Part shown: piece by piece, positions 3,924 to 13,091 of the stretch
How positions within the stretch are numbered: the stretch's first letter is position 1
Layout: each line of letters begins with the position of its first letter
Assembly (NCBI GenBank): GCA_001595385.3
Contig: LVEI03000001.1
Coordinates: 806,001 to 870,000 of the forward strand
Reading direction: 5' to 3'
From: Deltaproteobacteria bacterium GWC2_55_46
Lineage (GTDB): Bacteria > Desulfobacterota > GWC2-55-46
DNA length: 64,000 bases
The notes under the pieces: model-generated
Database searches by the model: none
Told to the model about the DNA's origin: nothing
Seen by the model: the letters and a program-made list of their open reading frames with translations, nothing else
Translations under genes and position numbers: made by a program

Positions 3924-3950
3924 GCCGGCAGACCTTATGAAAAAACAGAA

Positions 3951-3978
3951 AGGCGGGGCAGATGCCCCGCCTTTTTTT
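3951..3978 (+). terminator. Intrinsic terminator of the atp operon
   Basis: Perfect GC-rich inverted repeat AGGCGGGGCA / TGCCCCGCCT (3951-3960 and 3963-3972) followed directly by a T run to 3978. It lies just after atpC and no minus-strand gene ends here, so it serves the atp operon. Confidence 0.92.
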
Positions 3979-4116: not shown

Positions 4117-6345
4117 ATGACCTCCATGCGGATAACCAGAAGACTTATTGTGGCGCTGGTGATCGCGGTCACCGCCGTTTCAGGGATCGCGACATACCTG
4201 ACGGTCCAACAGGAACGCGACAGGCTCACCACAGACCTCGAGCACCGCGTATGGCTTCTCGCCGAGGGGCTCAAGGAATCTACAGGCCCCCTTATAGCAG
4301 AAGCTCCTTCCAAACGGCTCGACAGGATCGTTGAAAAGATAAGCGCCGGCAAACAGGTCGAAGGCATCGCTGTCTTCGACAACTCAGGCAAGCCTGTTTC
4401 ATTGTCAAAGGGCCTGGCCGGGAAGCTCCCTGATGATCTGAATTTCATACTGAAAGACCACGAGGGGGAGACTGGCAAGGGCACCTACGAAAAGGTAGAT
4501 TCCCTGCCGATGTATATCTATGCCCTTCCGACGACCATTGACGGGAATGTCAATACCGGCATGGTCGTCATATTCACCGACATCTCCTATATCGAAGAGC
4601 ATATATCGGGTATCTGGCGGAGGAATTTTATCAGGATACTCGCGAACGCGCTCATCATCTCTGTAATCACGCTTGTCATCGTACGCTGGAGCATCATCGG
4701 CCCCATCGCCCAGATGTCCGAATGGATAAAAAGCATGCACAGGGGAAAGGCCGACGGCCTGTTCAAGCTCCCTAAAGAGGGCATTTTCGAGCCGATATCC
4801 AAAGAGATATCGAGTATCGTAAAAAGCCTGGCAATAGCCCGCACGCAGGTCGAGGAGGAGGCGAGGCTCCGAAACCAGGCCGATTCCAAGTGGACGGCTG
4901 AACGGCTTAAGCTGCATGTGCGTGAGAAACTGCAGGACAGCAAACTTATAGTGGTCTCAAACCGGGAGCCCTACATGCACGTGCGGAGCGGCAAGCTCAT
5001 CGAGTGCCTCAGTCCGGCAAGCGGCCTCGTTACCGCGCTTGACCCGATATTAAAGGCATGCTCGGGGCTCTGGGTCGCGCATGGGTCCGGCAATGCCGAC
5101 AGAGAGACCGTGGATAACAAAGACATGGTGCTCGTGCCGCCTGACAACCCGCAGTATGTCCTCAAGAGGATCTGGCTCAGCCAGGAGGAAGAGGCAGGCT
5201 ATTATTACGGCCTTTCCAACGAGGGTCTGTGGCCGCTGTGCCACATAGCCCATACTCGCCCGACCTTCAGGATAGACGACTGGGCGCGCTATCAGGAGGT
5301 CAACTTAAGGTTCGCCAGGTCGCTTGACGACGAGATCGGGAAAGGGACTTACATATTCATCCAGGACTATCACTTCTCCATACTCCCGCGGCTTATCAAG
5401 CAGCGGCACCCTGACGCGAAGATCGCCCTTTTCTGGCATATACCCTGGCCCAATCCCGAAGCCTTCGGCATCTGCCCCTGGAAACGCGAGATACTCCACG
5501 GGATGCTCGGCGCGGACCTTATAGGGTTCCATACGCAGTATCACTGCAACAACTTTCTTGAAACTGTCGACAGGACGCTTGAATGCCGCACCAATTGGGA
5601 AAATTTTTCCACGACCAGGTCGGGGCACTCAACCATCGTCAAGCCCTTTCCCATAAGCGTCGATTTCAGCGGTCAGCCGCTCGGGCCAATAGGCCAGAGC
5701 AAGGAGGACCTGCTCAGGGAACTGGGGGTAAGAGCCTCTGTCTTCGGGATCGGCGTTGACCGCCTCGATTACACAAAGGGCATCATAGAAAGGCTCAGGG
5801 CCGTTGAGCGCTTCATTGAAAAAAACCCCGAATACCGCGAGGTATTCACATTCGTCCAGATAGGGGCTCCGAGCAGGGAGCACATAAAGAGCTATCACGA
5901 TTTCGTCGGGGAAGTGCTCTCAGAGGTAGACCGGATCAACTGGAAATTCCAGTCGGCCAACTGGAAGCCTATCGTATTCCTGAAGCGGCATTTCTCGCAC
6001 GCGGAGATCGAGCCGTTCTATCGCCACGCCGACCTGTGCATGGTAACGTCCCTCCATGACGGCATGAACCTCGTGGCCAAGGAGTTCATAGCTTCACGGG
6101 AGGACGAAAAAGGCGCGCTCATACTCAGCACTTTCGCTGGAGCCTCCCGTGAGCTCAGAGACGCCATCCTGGTAAACCCGTATGACATCGAGCAGATGGC
6201 CAACAGCATAAAGACAGCTCTCGAGATGGACTCATCAGAACAGATAGAGCGCATGAGGAAGATGCGGGAGATCGTGCGCGAAAACAATATTTACAGATGG
6301 GCGGCCAATATAATCACTGAACTCACCAACATACGCGCCAGCTGA
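4117..6345 (+). CDS. otsA: Membrane-anchored sensor-like trehalose-6-phosphate synthase (GT20)
   Basis: Predicted to join glucose from a nucleotide sugar to glucose-6-phosphate, giving trehalose-6-phosphate. At 742 residues it is far longer than plain OtsA (~460-500). Residues 10-28 and 171-190 are hydrophobic helices flanking a ~140-residue extracytoplasmic region that resembles a Cache-type sensor. A HAMP-like linker and coiled segment (~190-270) leads into the GT20 domain from ~276. The GT20 part has VSNREP, SPASGLVTALDP, GVDRLDYTKGI and HDGMNLVAKEF. OtsB overlaps its stop codon, which supports the trehalose role. An alternative start is the ATG at 4126. The sensor-type N-terminus suggests control by an envelope signal; that is inference. 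Confidence 0.85.
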   Translation: MTSMRITRRLIVALVIAVTAVSGIATYLTVQQERDRLTTDLEHRVWLLAEGLKESTGPLIAEAPSKRLDRIVEKISAGKQVEGIAVFDNSGKPVSLSKGLAGKLPDDLNFILKDHEGETGKGTYEKVDSLPMYIYALPTTIDGNVNTGMVVIFTDISYIEEHISGIWRRNFIRILANALIISVITLVIVRWSIIGPIAQMSEWIKSMHRGKADGLFKLPKEGIFEPISKEISSIVKSLAIARTQVEEEARLRNQADSKWTAERLKLHVREKLQDSKLIVVSNREPYMHVRSGKLIECLSPASGLVTALDPILKACSGLWVAHGSGNADRETVDNKDMVLVPPDNPQYVLKRIWLSQEEEAGYYYGLSNEGLWPLCHIAHTRPTFRIDDWARYQEVNLRFARSLDDEIGKGTYIFIQDYHFSILPRLIKQRHPDAKIALFWHIPWPNPEAFGICPWKREILHGMLGADLIGFHTQYHCNNFLETVDRTLECRTNWENFSTTRSGHSTIVKPFPISVDFSGQPLGPIGQSKEDLLRELGVRASVFGIGVDRLDYTKGIIERLRAVERFIEKNPEYREVFTFVQIGAPSREHIKSYHDFVGEVLSEVDRINWKFQSANWKPIVFLKRHFSHAEIEPFYRHADLCMVTSLHDGMNLVAKEFIASREDEKGALILSTFAGASRELRDAILVNPYDIEQMANSIKTALEMDSSEQIERMRKMREIVRENNIYRWAANIITELTNIRAS

Positions 6346-7073
6346 TGACAGGCTCAAGGACCAGGAAGATAATCTTCCTCGACTTTGACGGTACGCTTTC
6401 CCCGATTGTCGACGACCCATCCAGGGCCTTTATCAGGGATGAGAACGCGGCCTGGCTCCAAAAAGCCTCGAAGGACGGGAACCTCAAGCTGGCCATCGTC
6501 ACCGGCAGGTCGTTAAAGGACATACGCAGGCTGGTCGGTCTAACGGATATCATCTATGCCGCCAACCACGGCGCCGAGATATATTCCGGCGGCAAGATCC
6601 TGCTTAAGAAGGGCGAGGCATTTCGCCGGCCTCTCAGCCGTCTCGCAAAAGTGATGCGGGAGGCGCTTTCAGGAATACCAGGAATATATCTGGAGGACAA
6701 AGGCCTCTCGATAGCGGTGCACTTGAGGCGTGTGGAACGCAGCAACCACAGCAAAGCGAAGGAGATCGTTAAACAAGAGGCCGCCGCCGCGCTCGCGCGC
6801 CATGGGCTTAAAATTACTTACGGCAAAATGCTCGTCGAGATACGGCCTCATGCGCACTGGAACAAGGGGGACGCGGTGCTGTGGGTCTGGAAGAAACTTG
6901 CCCCGGACCACCTGCCGTTCTATGTTGGCGACGACACGACCGATGAAGACGCGTTCCAGGCGCTCCGGCCATATGGAATAACGATACGGATAAGAGACAA
7001 AAGAGGCTCTCACGCCGAATATTACGTCTCTTCTTTCAAACAGCTGATAGATTCCGGCCTTTTTGAATGCTGA
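6345..7073 (+). CDS. otsB: Trehalose-6-phosphate phosphatase (HAD family)
   Basis: Removes the phosphate from trehalose-6-phosphate in the cytoplasm. The 242-residue protein has the HAD nucleophile motif LDFDGTLSPI near residues 11-20, a VTGRS segment (motif II area) and the late acidic motif VGDDTTDEDAF. Its ATG overlaps the upstream TGA (TGATG at 6343-6347), so it is translationally coupled to the GT20 gene. An intrinsic terminator follows at 7124. Confidence 0.93.
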   Translation: MTGSRTRKIIFLDFDGTLSPIVDDPSRAFIRDENAAWLQKASKDGNLKLAIVTGRSLKDIRRLVGLTDIIYAANHGAEIYSGGKILLKKGEAFRRPLSRLAKVMREALSGIPGIYLEDKGLSIAVHLRRVERSNHSKAKEIVKQEAAAALARHGLKITYGKMLVEIRPHAHWNKGDAVLWVWKKLAPDHLPFYVGDDTTDEDAFQALRPYGITIRIRDKRGSHAEYYVSSFKQLIDSGLFEC

Positions 7074-7123
7074 ACACGCTGAAGCGTTGGCTGGTCAAGG
7101 CTAAAAGGTTCAAAGCTTCGATG

Positions 7124-7150
7124 AAGGCGGGGATGGGCCCCGCCTTTTTT
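7124..7150 (+). terminator. Intrinsic terminator after otsB
   Basis: Stem AAGGCGGGG / CCCCGCCTT (7124-7132 and 7138-7146) with a 5-base loop and a T run to 7150. It closes the otsAB transcript before the convergent gene that ends at 7206. Confidence 0.9.
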
Positions 7151-7205: not shown

Positions 7206-9182
7206 TTACTGCGGCGGCCTTACCTTATTTGAAAGTATGAGGTCGTAGCTGAACTTCAGGTACTGCTGGAACTCTTCCATCAGGGCCTTTGACTCCGCTC
7301 CGTCCTTCAAGATATCCCTGGCAGGGTCAGCCTTGTAATCATACAGGCCCATCGGGGCATTCATGTCTGTTACGAGCATATACCGCCCGTTCACCCACAC
7401 GAACATGTCGCCGCGCGGAAGCAGCGCCCTCCTCTCGCCTTCCGCAAGCACGGATTTCCCCCATGACGTAAATGGCGCCGGGACCTTTAGCATGTCGAAG
7501 ACAGTGGGCAGTATGTCCACCTGGCTCGCTACTGCCTGGTCTACCGATGGCTTTACGCCCGGCCCGTAGAAAAGGCACGGTACGCGGTAGCCCTCGTAGA
7601 CGCTTTCCCGGGTAGAATGCCCCTCCGTATGGTCGCCGACTATCACAAAAATAGTGTTCTTGAAATAATCCGATCTTCTGGCCTTCTCGAAAAACTTCCT
7701 CAAGGCATGATCAGAGTATCTCATCGAGTTCAGAAAAGCGCTGTACTGCACTTCGCTTCCGAAGTGCTCGAACTCCTTTGATGGGAGCTTATATGGCGTG
7801 TGGGAACTGAGTGAGAAGATGGCCGCGAAGAATGGTTCCCGCGTTTTCGAGAACTCCTCATCGGCTTTCTGGAAGGTATACTCGTCGTATATGCCCCATG
7901 TGCCGTCGTCGCCTGAGTCGTCGAAGTCGTCCCTTGAGATGTGCCTCTGGAAGCCGAACCTCTTTACGAGCGAATCGAAGCCGAGAGAGCCGGGCCTTGC
8001 GCCGTGGACGAAGATGGTCTCATAGCCGTAGCGTTTAAGCGAGCTCACGGCAGGCTCAAGCCTGGTCTGGTAGAGGAGCCCTCCCTGGTCGAGAGACATC
8101 TTTTTCCAGGAAGGCAGAGAGCCCAGGGTGGCTGAAAGCCCCTCGTAAGACCTCTGGGCGTTGGCAAAGCAGTTATTGAGGAGCATCCCGTCTTTTGACA
8201 GGGAGCTGAAGAACGGGGCCGCCTCTACTTTGCCTCCGAGAGAGCCTATGAACTTGGCGCTCCAGCTCTCCATGACGAAGATGACGACGTTCATATTCTT
8301 TCTTTCGCCGTCAGGATAATTGAACTTCCTGAAGAGCGGATAGCCCTCTGCCGCGCCCTCTTTGGACCTGTCCACTATGAAGCCCTGTACGTCGGCCTCT
8401 TTCTCAAAGGACGTCCTTCTTAATATCTCCAGGTTCTTGTCCTCGTTGTTGTTATAGAGCGTATTAAAGGTGGAGTATATGCCGTTTAAGGCCAGCGTCC
8501 CGACCTCTATCCTGTCGCTTGAGAACGCGTTCTTGATGCTGAGCGGCTTCATCTGCACCCCGCCCCTCGCTAAGACAACCGTAAGGGCCGCTATGGCGAG
8601 GAAGACGCCGGCGTCAACTGCGATGGAGGCAAGGTAGCCTCCGGGGGCGGCAAGCGGCGACCTCTTTTTCTCCCTTGCCAGATAGATATAGACGGAGCCG
8701 AAGAGAACAATGAAGAGAACGAGGGCGATGAACTCCGGGACGTACCTCGCCAGCCCTATCTTTACTATGACGCCGGTGTCGCGCCAGGTATTCGACAGCT
8801 CGAAGGTGAGGTGCCTCTGCGCGAAAGAATAATACTGTATGTCTATGAAATTGTAGGCGAGCAACGCGGCGTACCAGGCCAGGAGCGTGGCTAAAAGCGC
8901 CCTTCTGAGAAGCCTGCTAAGAGAGATGCCAGGAAAAAAAAGGACGAGAAAGACAGGGGCGGACATGAGGGCCGCGGTAGAGAGGTCGAAGCGCATGCCC
9001 TGGACAAAGGCCCAGGCTATCGAGCTCGCGTCTATCCCGGAGTAGGTATCGTGATATTTTATGAAAAAATAGAGCCTGCCGGCGGATAAGGCTGCCGCGA
9101 AGAGGATAAGAGGTACGAAAAAGCCCTTAAACTTGAGTCTGGCGTGGGTCAGGCTGTCCCTGAACAATCTACCTATATTCAC
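7206..9182 (-). CDS. LTA synthase/phosphoglycerol-transferase-like sulfatase-fold membrane enzyme
   Basis: Alkaline-phosphatase-superfamily enzyme anchored in the inner membrane with its catalytic domain outside. The 658 residues comprise about five N-terminal membrane helices and a C-terminal sulfatase-type domain. Visible metal-site motifs are NVVIFVMESWS at the domain start and FVIVGDHTEGH near the end. The segment NAQRSYEGL is where LTA synthases carry their nucleophile, usually Thr; here Ser appears to fill that place. In Gram-negative relatives such enzymes move phosphoglycerol or phosphoethanolamine onto glycans or lipids; the substrate here is unknown. It stands alone between two terminators. 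Confidence 0.85.
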   Translation of the reverse strand: MNIGRLFRDSLTHARLKFKGFFVPLILFAAALSAGRLYFFIKYHDTYSGIDASSIAWAFVQGMRFDLSTAALMSAPVFLVLFFPGISLSRLLRRALLATLLAWYAALLAYNFIDIQYYSFAQRHLTFELSNTWRDTGVIVKIGLARYVPEFIALVLFIVLFGSVYIYLAREKKRSPLAAPGGYLASIAVDAGVFLAIAALTVVLARGGVQMKPLSIKNAFSSDRIEVGTLALNGIYSTFNTLYNNNEDKNLEILRRTSFEKEADVQGFIVDRSKEGAAEGYPLFRKFNYPDGERKNMNVVIFVMESWSAKFIGSLGGKVEAAPFFSSLSKDGMLLNNCFANAQRSYEGLSATLGSLPSWKKMSLDQGGLLYQTRLEPAVSSLKRYGYETIFVHGARPGSLGFDSLVKRFGFQRHISRDDFDDSGDDGTWGIYDEYTFQKADEEFSKTREPFFAAIFSLSSHTPYKLPSKEFEHFGSEVQYSAFLNSMRYSDHALRKFFEKARRSDYFKNTIFVIVGDHTEGHSTRESVYEGYRVPCLFYGPGVKPSVDQAVASQVDILPTVFDMLKVPAPFTSWGKSVLAEGERRALLPRGDMFVWVNGRYMLVTDMNAPMGLYDYKADPARDILKDGAESKALMEEFQQYLKFSYDLILSNKVRPPQ

Positions 9183-9891: not shown

Positions 9892-10899
9892 TCAGTTCTG
9901 GAGCTTTACGGCCTCGATATCTGCCTCCCGCGCGCCGAGCCCTACGGAAACAGGCAATGATACGTAGTGCTTTCTTTTATCCGTACCATAGTCGTGTATT
10001 GCCAACCCTATTGTGACCACGTCCCCTTCCGAGAGCGCTACGTTATATCTGCCAGCGCTCCCGAGCTTTATCTTGAAGACCGCGATATACTTACCCGAAG
10101 ACCATGACCCTGCGCCCTCGAAGCCGGGCTTCTCGTCCCATACCCTGTCGTCAAAGACCCTTCCGTCTTCAGACGACACCCTTCCGCCCTCGAACTGGAT
10201 CGATTTAAGGTCGATAATACCGTCCCTGGACCTTAAATCCGCGTCCGCCCTCCTCTCGGACCAGGAGCTTTTGGCGTAATAGGCGTAAAGACGCGCTTCG
10301 TCCCTGCCCTTATACACACGCCCGATATCGCCGCTTGATGGGGCCTGCGGCATCGTGCTCAGGTCGTTATGGCATGTAATGAAGCAGCCGTAGTTGCGGA
10401 AAGCCTGCTCTGACTTGTTCATCTGTATGGAGACCCTGTCAGGGGTGTTGCCCTTCTGGCTCCAGGAAGCCCCTTTTGAGTCCCAGCTGAACCTCAGGTA
10501 GAGGTAATCGTTATCGTAAGCCGCCTGCGCCTCGGTTGTGATGACGCCCTTTTTGCCCGGCAGCGGTTCCGGCTCGAAGGGCTTGTGAGACCTCTTCATC
10601 CTGATGGCGCCCGAGGCGATCTCATCGGCCTTGAGGTCAAGCCCACCGTCCATTTCAAGATGGCAATGGCCGCAGTTCTTCTTGCCTTTTTTTATCTCCC
10701 TGGCTCCCAGCTTGTGGTCATCGCTATTGAGGAATTCCCACGAGCTCACGCCCGGATAAAAGAGGTATATATTCGAGGACCTGACCTTTGACCAGTTTAT
10801 CTCCGCCGCGCGTGAATATTGAGGAAAGAAGAAAGTAACCAGTACCAGAAAAGGCAATACTATGCTGAAAGCCCCCATCCGCCGCCTCCGTTCTGTCAT
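9892..10899 (-). CDS. Exported c-type cytochrome with ethylbenzene-dehydrogenase-type haem domain
   Basis: A 335-residue periplasmic protein. A signal peptide ends near residue 32 (SRAA). CGHCH at 76-80 is a covalent haem c site. The rest resembles the EB_dh (ethylbenzene dehydrogenase gamma / DMSO reductase-related) beta-sandwich, including a CFITCH sequence (172-177, a C-x3-CH spacing). Its ATG overlaps the chemoreceptor stop (ATGA, 10896-10899), so the two are translationally coupled. A partner role for the haem-containing chemoreceptor is plausible but inferred. Confidence 0.75.
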
Positions 10900-13091
10900 G
10901 CCTTGAAGTTTGCCACAGTGCTCTTGAGGGCGTCTGCCTGCCTGTTCATCTCGCCTACCGTCCTCTCGAGCCTTGCCGCGAGCGCCGCGTTGTCCTCAGC
11001 GGCCTTCTTGACCGTATTTACCGCGTTCACTATCCTTTTGGAGAAGACCATCTGCTCGGATGTCGCGTCGGCCACCCTTGATATCTTCTCTATCACCTTG
11101 AATATGGCCTCGGCGACCCTCCTGGTCTCACGCCCCTGCTCCATGGTAGATGATTTCACCCGTTCCATGAACTCACGCATCTGCGCGGTGTCCTTCAAGA
11201 TCTCCTTGGCGGCGTGCGACTGCTCCCCTGAGGCGTTCTTTATGTCGGAGACCATGTGGCTCATCACCTGGACGGCGCTGGCGATCTGGCCGGCGCCCTT
11301 GGTCTGCTCGGCAGTCGCCTTCTCGATGAGCTTCGCCATCTCGAAGGAGCTGCGTGAAGAGTCCAGTATCTTTATGAGCGCCTCCTGGGCGTTCCTTGAA
11401 AGGGCCACGCCGTCCTCGACCTTCTCAGAGCTCCTCTTCATCGACTCTACCGAGATAGCCACCTCGCTCTGGACCTGGCTTATGAGCTCAGCTATCTCCT
11501 TTGTCGAAGAGGTCGTCTTCGTCGCCAGGTCCTTCACCTGCCTCGCAACTACCGCGAACCCTTTCCCGTGCTCACCGGCCTGCGCCGCCAGTATCGTGGC
11601 GTTGAGCGCCAGGAGGTGGGTCGTATCGGCTATGTCGTTTATGACGATCAAGACCTTGCCTATCTCTTTCGACCTCTCGCCGAGGCGGTTTATCACCAGC
11701 GCGGTCGAGGCCACCTCCTCGCTTACCTTCTCTATCCCCTCCCTGGTCTTGACGACCGAGGCCATGCCGAGGTCCTCGGCGTCCACCCTGACCTTCTCGG
11801 CAAGCTCGGCCTGGCTCCTGGAGTAGGTCTCCACCTCCTTGACCTTCTCGCCGATATCAATGATCGAAGAGACGACGTCCTCGCTATTCCTGAAAAGCTC
11901 GTCGACGTGCGAGGCGACCTGGTTTATTGATACGGCTATCTCGTTTATGGAAGAGTTAGTCGATGAGGCCGCGATAAAGAGCTTCTCTATATTGACCTTC
12001 ACATCGTCGACAGAGCCGGACATGGTGCGCACGGACTCGGAGACCTCGCTTGACGAGCCGCGGAGCGCCTCGGCCTCCTCCGCGACCATCTTTATCGACG
12101 CGTCCATCTCCTGTATGGACCCGGATGTGTCTTCCGCGGCCTGCATCTGGGTCTTTACCGCCTCGATTATCTCCCTTGACGAAGACTCTATCTGGGTGGA
12201 CGCGGCCGACACCTCTCTCGATATGCCGAAGATGTCCCTGACCATCGTCTGCATGCCGTCGACGAACTTGTTGAACCACCTGCCAAGGAGGCCTATCTCG
12301 TCATTCGAGCTTATCTCGAGCCTCTTGGTGAGGTCTCCCTTGCCCTCGGCTATGGCCTTTAGCATCACGACCGCCCTGTCGATCGGGCGGGTTATGACGC
12401 CGGAGACAAGAAGCCCCAGGAGGATCGTCATCGCGCTCAAGGTGGCGAGCCCGTAGAATATCCATTTATTCCTCGACCCGGCCAGGAGGTCGTACATCTC
12501 TTCAAGGGAGGTCGTTATCATGAGCGCGCCCCTTGCGGCCTCCTCGTGCTCATGGCAGGAGGAGCATTTCGGCCTGTACTCTATCGGCACTACGTAAGTA
12601 AAAAGTTTCCGGTCCCCTTCGCTCTCGGTATAATAGACCGCTTCCTTCTGCCCGCGGTTAAAGGCCTGGAGCGCCTTCTTGAACTCCGGGTTTTGTATGC
12701 CCTTGGCGACGTTGTTGAGCTTGTTAGGGTGGTCGGCGAGCCACTCCGGCTTTATCTCGCCGAACTCGGTCTTGACGGCGTCCAGGGTCTTGTGGTCCTG
12801 GAAGGCCTCCTCGACCCCGTTCGACCTTATGAGCTGGACCCGCTCAACCCCCTTTATGGTCTTGAGGCCTTCGATGAGGAAGCGGGACATGTCAGCGCGC
12901 TCATCGAGCATGTCCTTGTAGATAGTATGGAGGATGGGCTGGGCCATGAGCGCGCTCGCCTTCAGGCGCTCCCTCAAAAGGCTCTTCTCCTCCTCCTTTA
13001 TGACCAGGAGTATGAGCACCCCGAAGGCGACGAGCGCAAGCCCGATCGTCAGGTTGAGTATTTTGGATTTCAAGCCCTGCCGGAACATCAC
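10896..13091 (-). CDS. Methyl-accepting chemotaxis protein with a haem-c periplasmic sensor domain
   Basis: A 731-residue chemoreceptor. TM1 is at about 12-30 and TM2 at about 210-232; between them lies a ~180-residue periplasmic domain ending in CSSCH (176-180), a haem c attachment motif, in a DUF3365/Tll0287-like context. HAMP follows at about 232-285 ([13 protein letters not shown]), then a long coiled-coil signalling domain. The hairpin tip reads [24 protein letters not shown], a variant in which ILAAQ replaces the more common IEAAR. It is predicted to sense redox state or a gas at the periplasmic face and signal to CheA/CheW. It is the first gene of an operon with a cytochrome. Confidence 0.9.

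Follow-up and report, generated by a model that had tools for sequence, protein, structure and literature searches.

A trehalose-6-phosphate synthase joined by a divergent HAMP linker to a predicted kinase-like transmembrane sensor

The stretch of DNA analysed here (64,000 nucleotides from Deltaproteobacteria bacterium GWC2_55_46, hereafter the window) contains an open reading frame encoding 742 residues, in which a trehalose-6-phosphate synthase (TPS) follows what looked like a membrane receptor, and this raised the question of whether trehalose synthesis could be switched directly from outside the cell. The true start of the protein may be the ATG at position 4126 (M4), three codons downstream, because its relatives begin there. 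Kyte-Doolittle hydropathy averaged over 19 residues peaked at residues 10 (2.37) and 171 (2.52), and no value above 1.34 was found outside these two transmembrane (TM) regions; assuming the usual topology, the approximately 135 residues between them (about 30-165) would be extracytoplasmic, in agreement with the first-pass annotation, which had described two membrane helices enclosing about 140 such residues. The complete GT20 domain that it had also described was recovered by the Pfam profile Glyco_transf_20, with profile positions 2-472 of 473 covered (E-value 5.4e-118) and a score of 395 bits against a curated cut-off of 32.5, as expected of a full-length member. GT20 stands where a histidine kinase would carry its output, and no HisKA or HATPase_c domain was found by Pfam in the window protein. 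The features described below are collected in Table 1.

Table 1. Positions of the predicted features; numbers refer to the window, except in the last row, where they refer to the loci named.
Feature	Position	Strand	Evidence or remarks
Terminator-like hairpin, near-perfect inverted repeat, between atpC and the TPS-otsB unit	3949..3974	.	Assigned to the - strand by the scan, though a T run follows the + copy as well
Sensor-fused trehalose-6-phosphate synthase, 742 aa	4117..6345	+	Open reading frame; GT20; full-length homologues; start possibly 4126
TM1, about residues 10-30	4144..4206	+	Hydropathy; model helix 2-60
Cache (PAS-like) sensor, extracytoplasmic, about residues 31-165	4207..4611	+	AlphaFold2 secondary structure; Foldseek/VIA; Pfam sCache_3_2 in relatives; PDB profile match 5is1
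TM2, about residues 167-191	4615..4689	+	Hydropathy; model helix 157-208
Divergent HAMP: AS1 192-208 with P196, connector 209-224, AS2 and coiled coil 225-256	4690..4884	+	Alignment to authentic kinase HAMPs; spacing and conservation; model
Helix about 259-272 with invariant W259 (motif WTxERL), preceding GT20	4891..4932	+	Spacing; soluble relatives
GT20 catalytic domain, residues 276-737, OtsA catalytic residues conserved	4942..6327	+	Pfam; alignment with E. coli OtsA
otsB-type trehalose-6-phosphate phosphatase	6345..7073	+	Pfam Trehalose_PPase 3.4e-44; overlaps the TPS stop codon, TGATG at 6343-6347
Terminator-like hairpin after otsB	7123..7147	+	Hairpin scan
MscS-DUF5752 fusions	L006:2267-3646, L010:2272-3654, L022:8054-9448, L033:8003-9391, L047:8021-9427		

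The profile searches for Cache and HAMP domains that had been proposed at first pass came back empty for the window protein alone, neither the region between the TMs nor the linker (about residues 192-256) giving a Pfam match even at E ≤ 1, and were informative for its relatives. Among 58 family N-termini, sCache_3_2 was matched by 19 (best E-value 1.3e-8) and HAMP by 14 (best 3.5e-5). The NCBIfam WalK kinase model was matched by 43 of these 58 (best 1e-13) and weakly by residues 13-250 of the window protein, over the WalK sensor half (6.5e-5), and WalK ectodomains were returned by a PDB profile search. In the AlphaFold2 model of the N-terminus the segment between the two TMs presented the arrangement of an sCache domain, a long N-terminal helix (3-61) followed by a PAS-like antiparallel sheet with five strands within residues 83-155. 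The ectodomain was poorly conserved (about 25% identity across the family), so that no single ligand is implied.

A profile HMM built from the 58 N-termini found open frames of the same phylum with E-values down to 5e-33, and these frames encode conventional histidine kinases in which HAMP, HisKA, and HATPase domains are unmistakable (L112, L116, L119, and others, whose HAMPs scored 31-57 bits). Because the profile aligned to these Cache-HAMP kinases almost without gaps, from TM1 through Cache and TM2 to HAMP, the N-terminal half is, as judged from sequence, homologous to the sensor half of histidine kinases; no separate kinase sharing this N-terminus was found in the window's genome. The AlphaFold2 model of the full protein had a mean pLDDT of 88 (88.7 for the N-terminus), the runs being single-chain and therefore uninformative on dimers. 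A continuous helix (157-208) carried TM2 into AS1 and was followed by a 16-residue connector, a helix at 225-256, and a further helix (261-272) leading into GT20. The best Foldseek match of the N-terminal model was the WalK model 9a5d (2.6e-10), with a VIA-align Z of 16.3 over 273 residues; since 9a5d is itself an integrative/predicted model, ectodomain crystal structures are the firmer evidence, and the sensor domains of CitA, WalK, and DcuS gave Z values of 13-14. Topology, Cache fold, and TM2-HAMP continuity are the same as in WalK/YycG-type histidine kinases (TM-Cache-TM-HAMP-...-HisKA-HATPase), from which the window protein differs in having a biosynthetic GT20 enzyme instead of a HisKA/HATPase output, and in the absence of the DExG glutamate from its HAMP.

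The linker, which the first-pass annotation had called HAMP-like, is a divergent HAMP, homologous to canonical ones and failing one of their defining motifs. An AS1 proline, a glycine position 14 residues further on, a connector of variable length, and a heptad-patterned AS2 were all found directly after TM2, whereas the DExG glutamate at the start of AS2, and any Pfam score in the protein itself, were missing. P196 and E230 were invariant in 58 of 58 aligned N-termini, and P196 was kept in all 93 main-clade relatives, with a P196-G210 spacing of 14 in 93/93 and the glycine itself in 76/93. Connector length ranged from 14 to 19 in these 93 sequences, while the geometry coupling AS2 to GT20 was rigid (E230-W259 spacing of 29 in 85/93, W259-R283 spacing of 24 in all). 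Heptad-like hydrophobic residues (227-231-234-238-241-245) ran on from the HAMP towards GT20. In the near-gapless kinase register the position of the canonical DExG glutamate (223) was occupied by L, I, V, or F, the preceding Asp being present in 47/93, and E230 is a family-specific invariant residue distinct from that glutamate. E230, being invariant, was first considered as the DExG glutamate, in a register with a connector six residues longer; this was abandoned because the almost gapless alignment to kinases with certain HAMPs puts 223 at that position and because AS2 begins at 225 in the model. Several soluble relatives start at or just before W259; thus the helix at about 259-272 is part of the enzyme, which places the fusion joint immediately ahead of that helix. 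The first-pass annotation had named a linker with no HAMP match, together with an N-terminus that is only a membrane anchor, as counting against its reading, and the window sequence taken literally has no such match; the kinase profile match, the Pfam HAMP and sCache matches of relatives, and the WalK-like model reversed that outcome.

More than 80 homologues at 46-57% identity were full length including the N-terminus (genome scan and phylum search), which together with the invariance of P196 and E230 indicates that the fused architecture lies far beyond chance. In a tree of the GT20 domain alone (83 rows) every fused protein fell in one clade (SH-aLRT 95) inside the soluble enzymes, so that a single change is needed; this points to one origin of the fusion on the sampled tree, a claim limited by soluble outgroups drawn only from the window's phylum and E. 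coli. Predicted sensor-fused TPSs occur in a dozen or more phyla, as tallied from record titles that are mostly those of MAGs and of which the tree holds a sample: besides the window's own phylum, Acidobacteriota, Elusimicrobiota, Omnitrophota, Nitrospirota, Bacteroidota, Methylomirabilota, Rokubacteria, Myxococcota, Verrucomicrobiota, Gemmatimonadota, Edwardsbacteria, and Daviesbacteria. In two congeners (G197 and G283) the TPS is a distant, soluble one (39-40% identity), so that horizontal acquisition or differential retention of the window gene is probable. Relatives on plasmids were soluble only, and none of them covered 80% of the query. One genome, G278, encodes both a sensor-fused and a soluble TPS (L093 and L126), and another, G090, has a fused copy of full length together with fragments of a second one (contigs C55 and C66).

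A second, sister clade of fused proteins was found in the window's phylum (L097-L110, namely L097, L099, L100, and L102-L110), with an N-terminus homologous to that of the main clade (hhalign 99.8%). Its members keep the TMs and the sensor region, have lost the HAMP proline P196 and have a shortened linker; no HAMP match was found among them. A heptad-sized deletion in this clade appeared in one alignment and was absent from another, and is not claimed.

The window protein is probably a transmembrane receptor enzyme of the one-component kind, with a compatible-solute enzyme as its output domain. In such a protein the Cache domain would perceive a ligand or a physical change outside the membrane and move TM2; TM2 and the coiled coil of the divergent HAMP, presumably dimeric, would relay the conformational change as the HAMP bundle repacks; the coiled coil, together with the helix that leads into GT20, could then alter TPS activity, raising or lowering trehalose-6-phosphate synthesis, and co-translated OtsB would convert the product to trehalose. 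Dimerisation, the switching of activity, and its direction are what we infer from the architecture, from which a direct switching of trehalose synthesis by an external signal, as the first-pass annotation had proposed, would follow naturally. Receptor enzymes linked through HAMP include adenylate cyclases, diguanylate cyclases, and RsbU-type phosphatases, in which a membrane sensor is likewise coupled to a catalytic output; in these known cases the output either produces a second messenger or modifies proteins, whereas that of the window protein would make a stress metabolite. Plant TPS1 has an autoregulatory, cytosolic N-terminal extension; it is also a TPS preceded by a regulatory region, but its extension is unrelated and has neither sensor nor HAMP.

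The strongest competitor, which we regard as unlikely, is that the N-terminal half, though kept from a receptor, serves only as a membrane anchor or dimerisation device and positions the TPS there, close to channels or exporters for instance, with no signalling. The sister clade shows that a fusion can persist without HAMP proline or HAMP match while TMs and sensor region are kept, so simple anchoring is possible, and the weak conservation of the sensor domain points in the same direction. A mere anchor, however, would need neither a complete Cache fold nor P196 in 93/93 relatives, E230 in all sequences, and a fixed spacing between AS2 and GT20; moreover, at least one genome (G278) encodes a soluble TPS as well, which suggests a specialised role for the fused enzyme.

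The receptor-enzyme reading also supposes that the GT20 domain makes trehalose-6-phosphate, which is the best inference for its function. The nearest solved structures to the window protein were mycobacterial and fungal trehalose-6-phosphate synthases. At about 34% identity to E. coli OtsA (MG1655 sequence), the GT20 domain had the same residue as OtsA at every position checked in the UDP-glucose (donor) and glucose-6-phosphate (acceptor) sites (R10, G23, Y77, W86, D131, H155, R263, K268, R301, D362, and E370, E. coli Met1 numbering), and these positions were invariant in 69 of 69 relatives. Like the E. coli and mycobacterial OtsA, the window protein thus has a complete GT-B GT20 enzyme, the active-site residues checked, and an otsB partner, the difference being that classical OtsA is soluble and the enzyme here is preceded by 270 residues of membrane receptor. 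By the NCBIfam equivalog criterion for OtsA (TIGR02400; 429.8 bits vs. a cut-off of 564.85) the protein would be placed in a divergent GT20 subfamily, and it also scored below the cut-offs of the bifunctional TPS (496.4 vs. 634) and PRK10117 TPS (272.6 vs. 759) models. These low scores would suit a regulated GT20 enzyme with another sugar-phosphate product, such as glucosylglycerol phosphate; we consider this improbable, given that the glucosylglycerol-phosphate synthase model scored 302.9 (cut-off 569), less than the OtsA and bifunctional TPS models did, that all the OtsA residues checked are conserved, and that a trehalose-phosphatase gene overlaps the window gene and OtsB adjoins about half of the related loci. 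Support for trehalose-6-phosphate as the product comes in particular from that overlap. The window gene is the sole GT20 gene in its genome. Least probable is that the linker is an ordinary TM-proximal coiled coil whose likeness to HAMP arose by convergence and not by homology, which would account for the absent Pfam match and DExG glutamate in the window protein but not for the almost gapless alignment of kinases with certain HAMPs through TM2 and linker, nor for the direct HAMP matches of 14/58 relatives.

Within the receptor-enzyme reading, osmolarity is a doubtful candidate for the signal, and osmolarity or desiccation together remain speculative; the guess about osmolarity arises from the known role of trehalose and from MscS-type channels beside related loci. 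Among 80 loci outside the window's genome, OtsB was found in 42, a TreT-type trehalose synthase in 40, DUF5752 in 30, and MscS-type channels in 10, some of them fused to DUF5752. The MscS baseline (63 matches in about 120 Mb from 39 genomes of the window's phylum) gave an expectation well under one in the flanks; the association with fused-TPS loci is suggestive only, as the loci are not independent and the baseline comes from another phylum. No MscS-type channel lies beside the window gene. Near sensor-fused TPS and TreT there are fusion proteins of about 460 aa in which an MscS beta-domain is linked to DUF5752 (Table 1). No literature on DUF5752 was found in the open-access library searched; it may be a regulatory or enzyme subunit of the trehalose pathway. 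In the window's genome the DUF5752-TreT and MscS genes are located elsewhere, and the presence of the DUF5752-TreT pair (G000:C1:1407006-1408156) means that this organism may have two trehalose routes.

To our knowledge, compatible-solute synthesis is controlled by transcription or through cytosolic enzymes, and little is known in bacteria of its post-translational gating by outside conditions. No relevant study of a HAMP- or sensor-fused TPS was found in the open-access literature searched; both modules are known, and it is the predicted combination of a HAMP-coupled receptor with a compatible-solute output that was not encountered there, although databases may already list the architecture without any study of it. 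Whether these proteins form a widespread class of one-component receptors, in which a compatible-solute enzyme has replaced the histidine-kinase output and trehalose synthesis would be set by external stress at the post-translational level, without an intervening kinase, second messenger, or transcription factor, is in our judgement evenly balanced. If the fusion does switch, a single-protein path from sensing to protectant would exist in a dozen or more phyla, and anabolic enzymes would join the list of HAMP-coupled outputs. The protein would also offer a simple system for HAMP signalling that can be assayed by UDP release, with a natural comparison set made up of the canonical fusion, the HAMP-less fusion, and the soluble enzyme.

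In the window, the sensor-fused TPS and otsB genes are predicted to form a two-gene unit, set apart by hairpins from atpC and from the downstream DNA. A search for RNA regulatory elements around this unit gave no Rfam match; a sigma-70 promoter scan gave two matches (1.7 expected), neither of them upstream of the TPS gene, and is uninformative. Convergent with otsB is a gene for a 658-aa membrane protein of sulfatase fold, LTA-synthase-like (7206-9182, - strand). Further on (9892-13091, - strand), a chemoreceptor whose class 40H-like sensor contains a CSSCH haem-type motif adjoins an ethylbenzene-dehydrogenase-type haem protein with CGHCH, the two being possibly a haem-based redox sensing pair.
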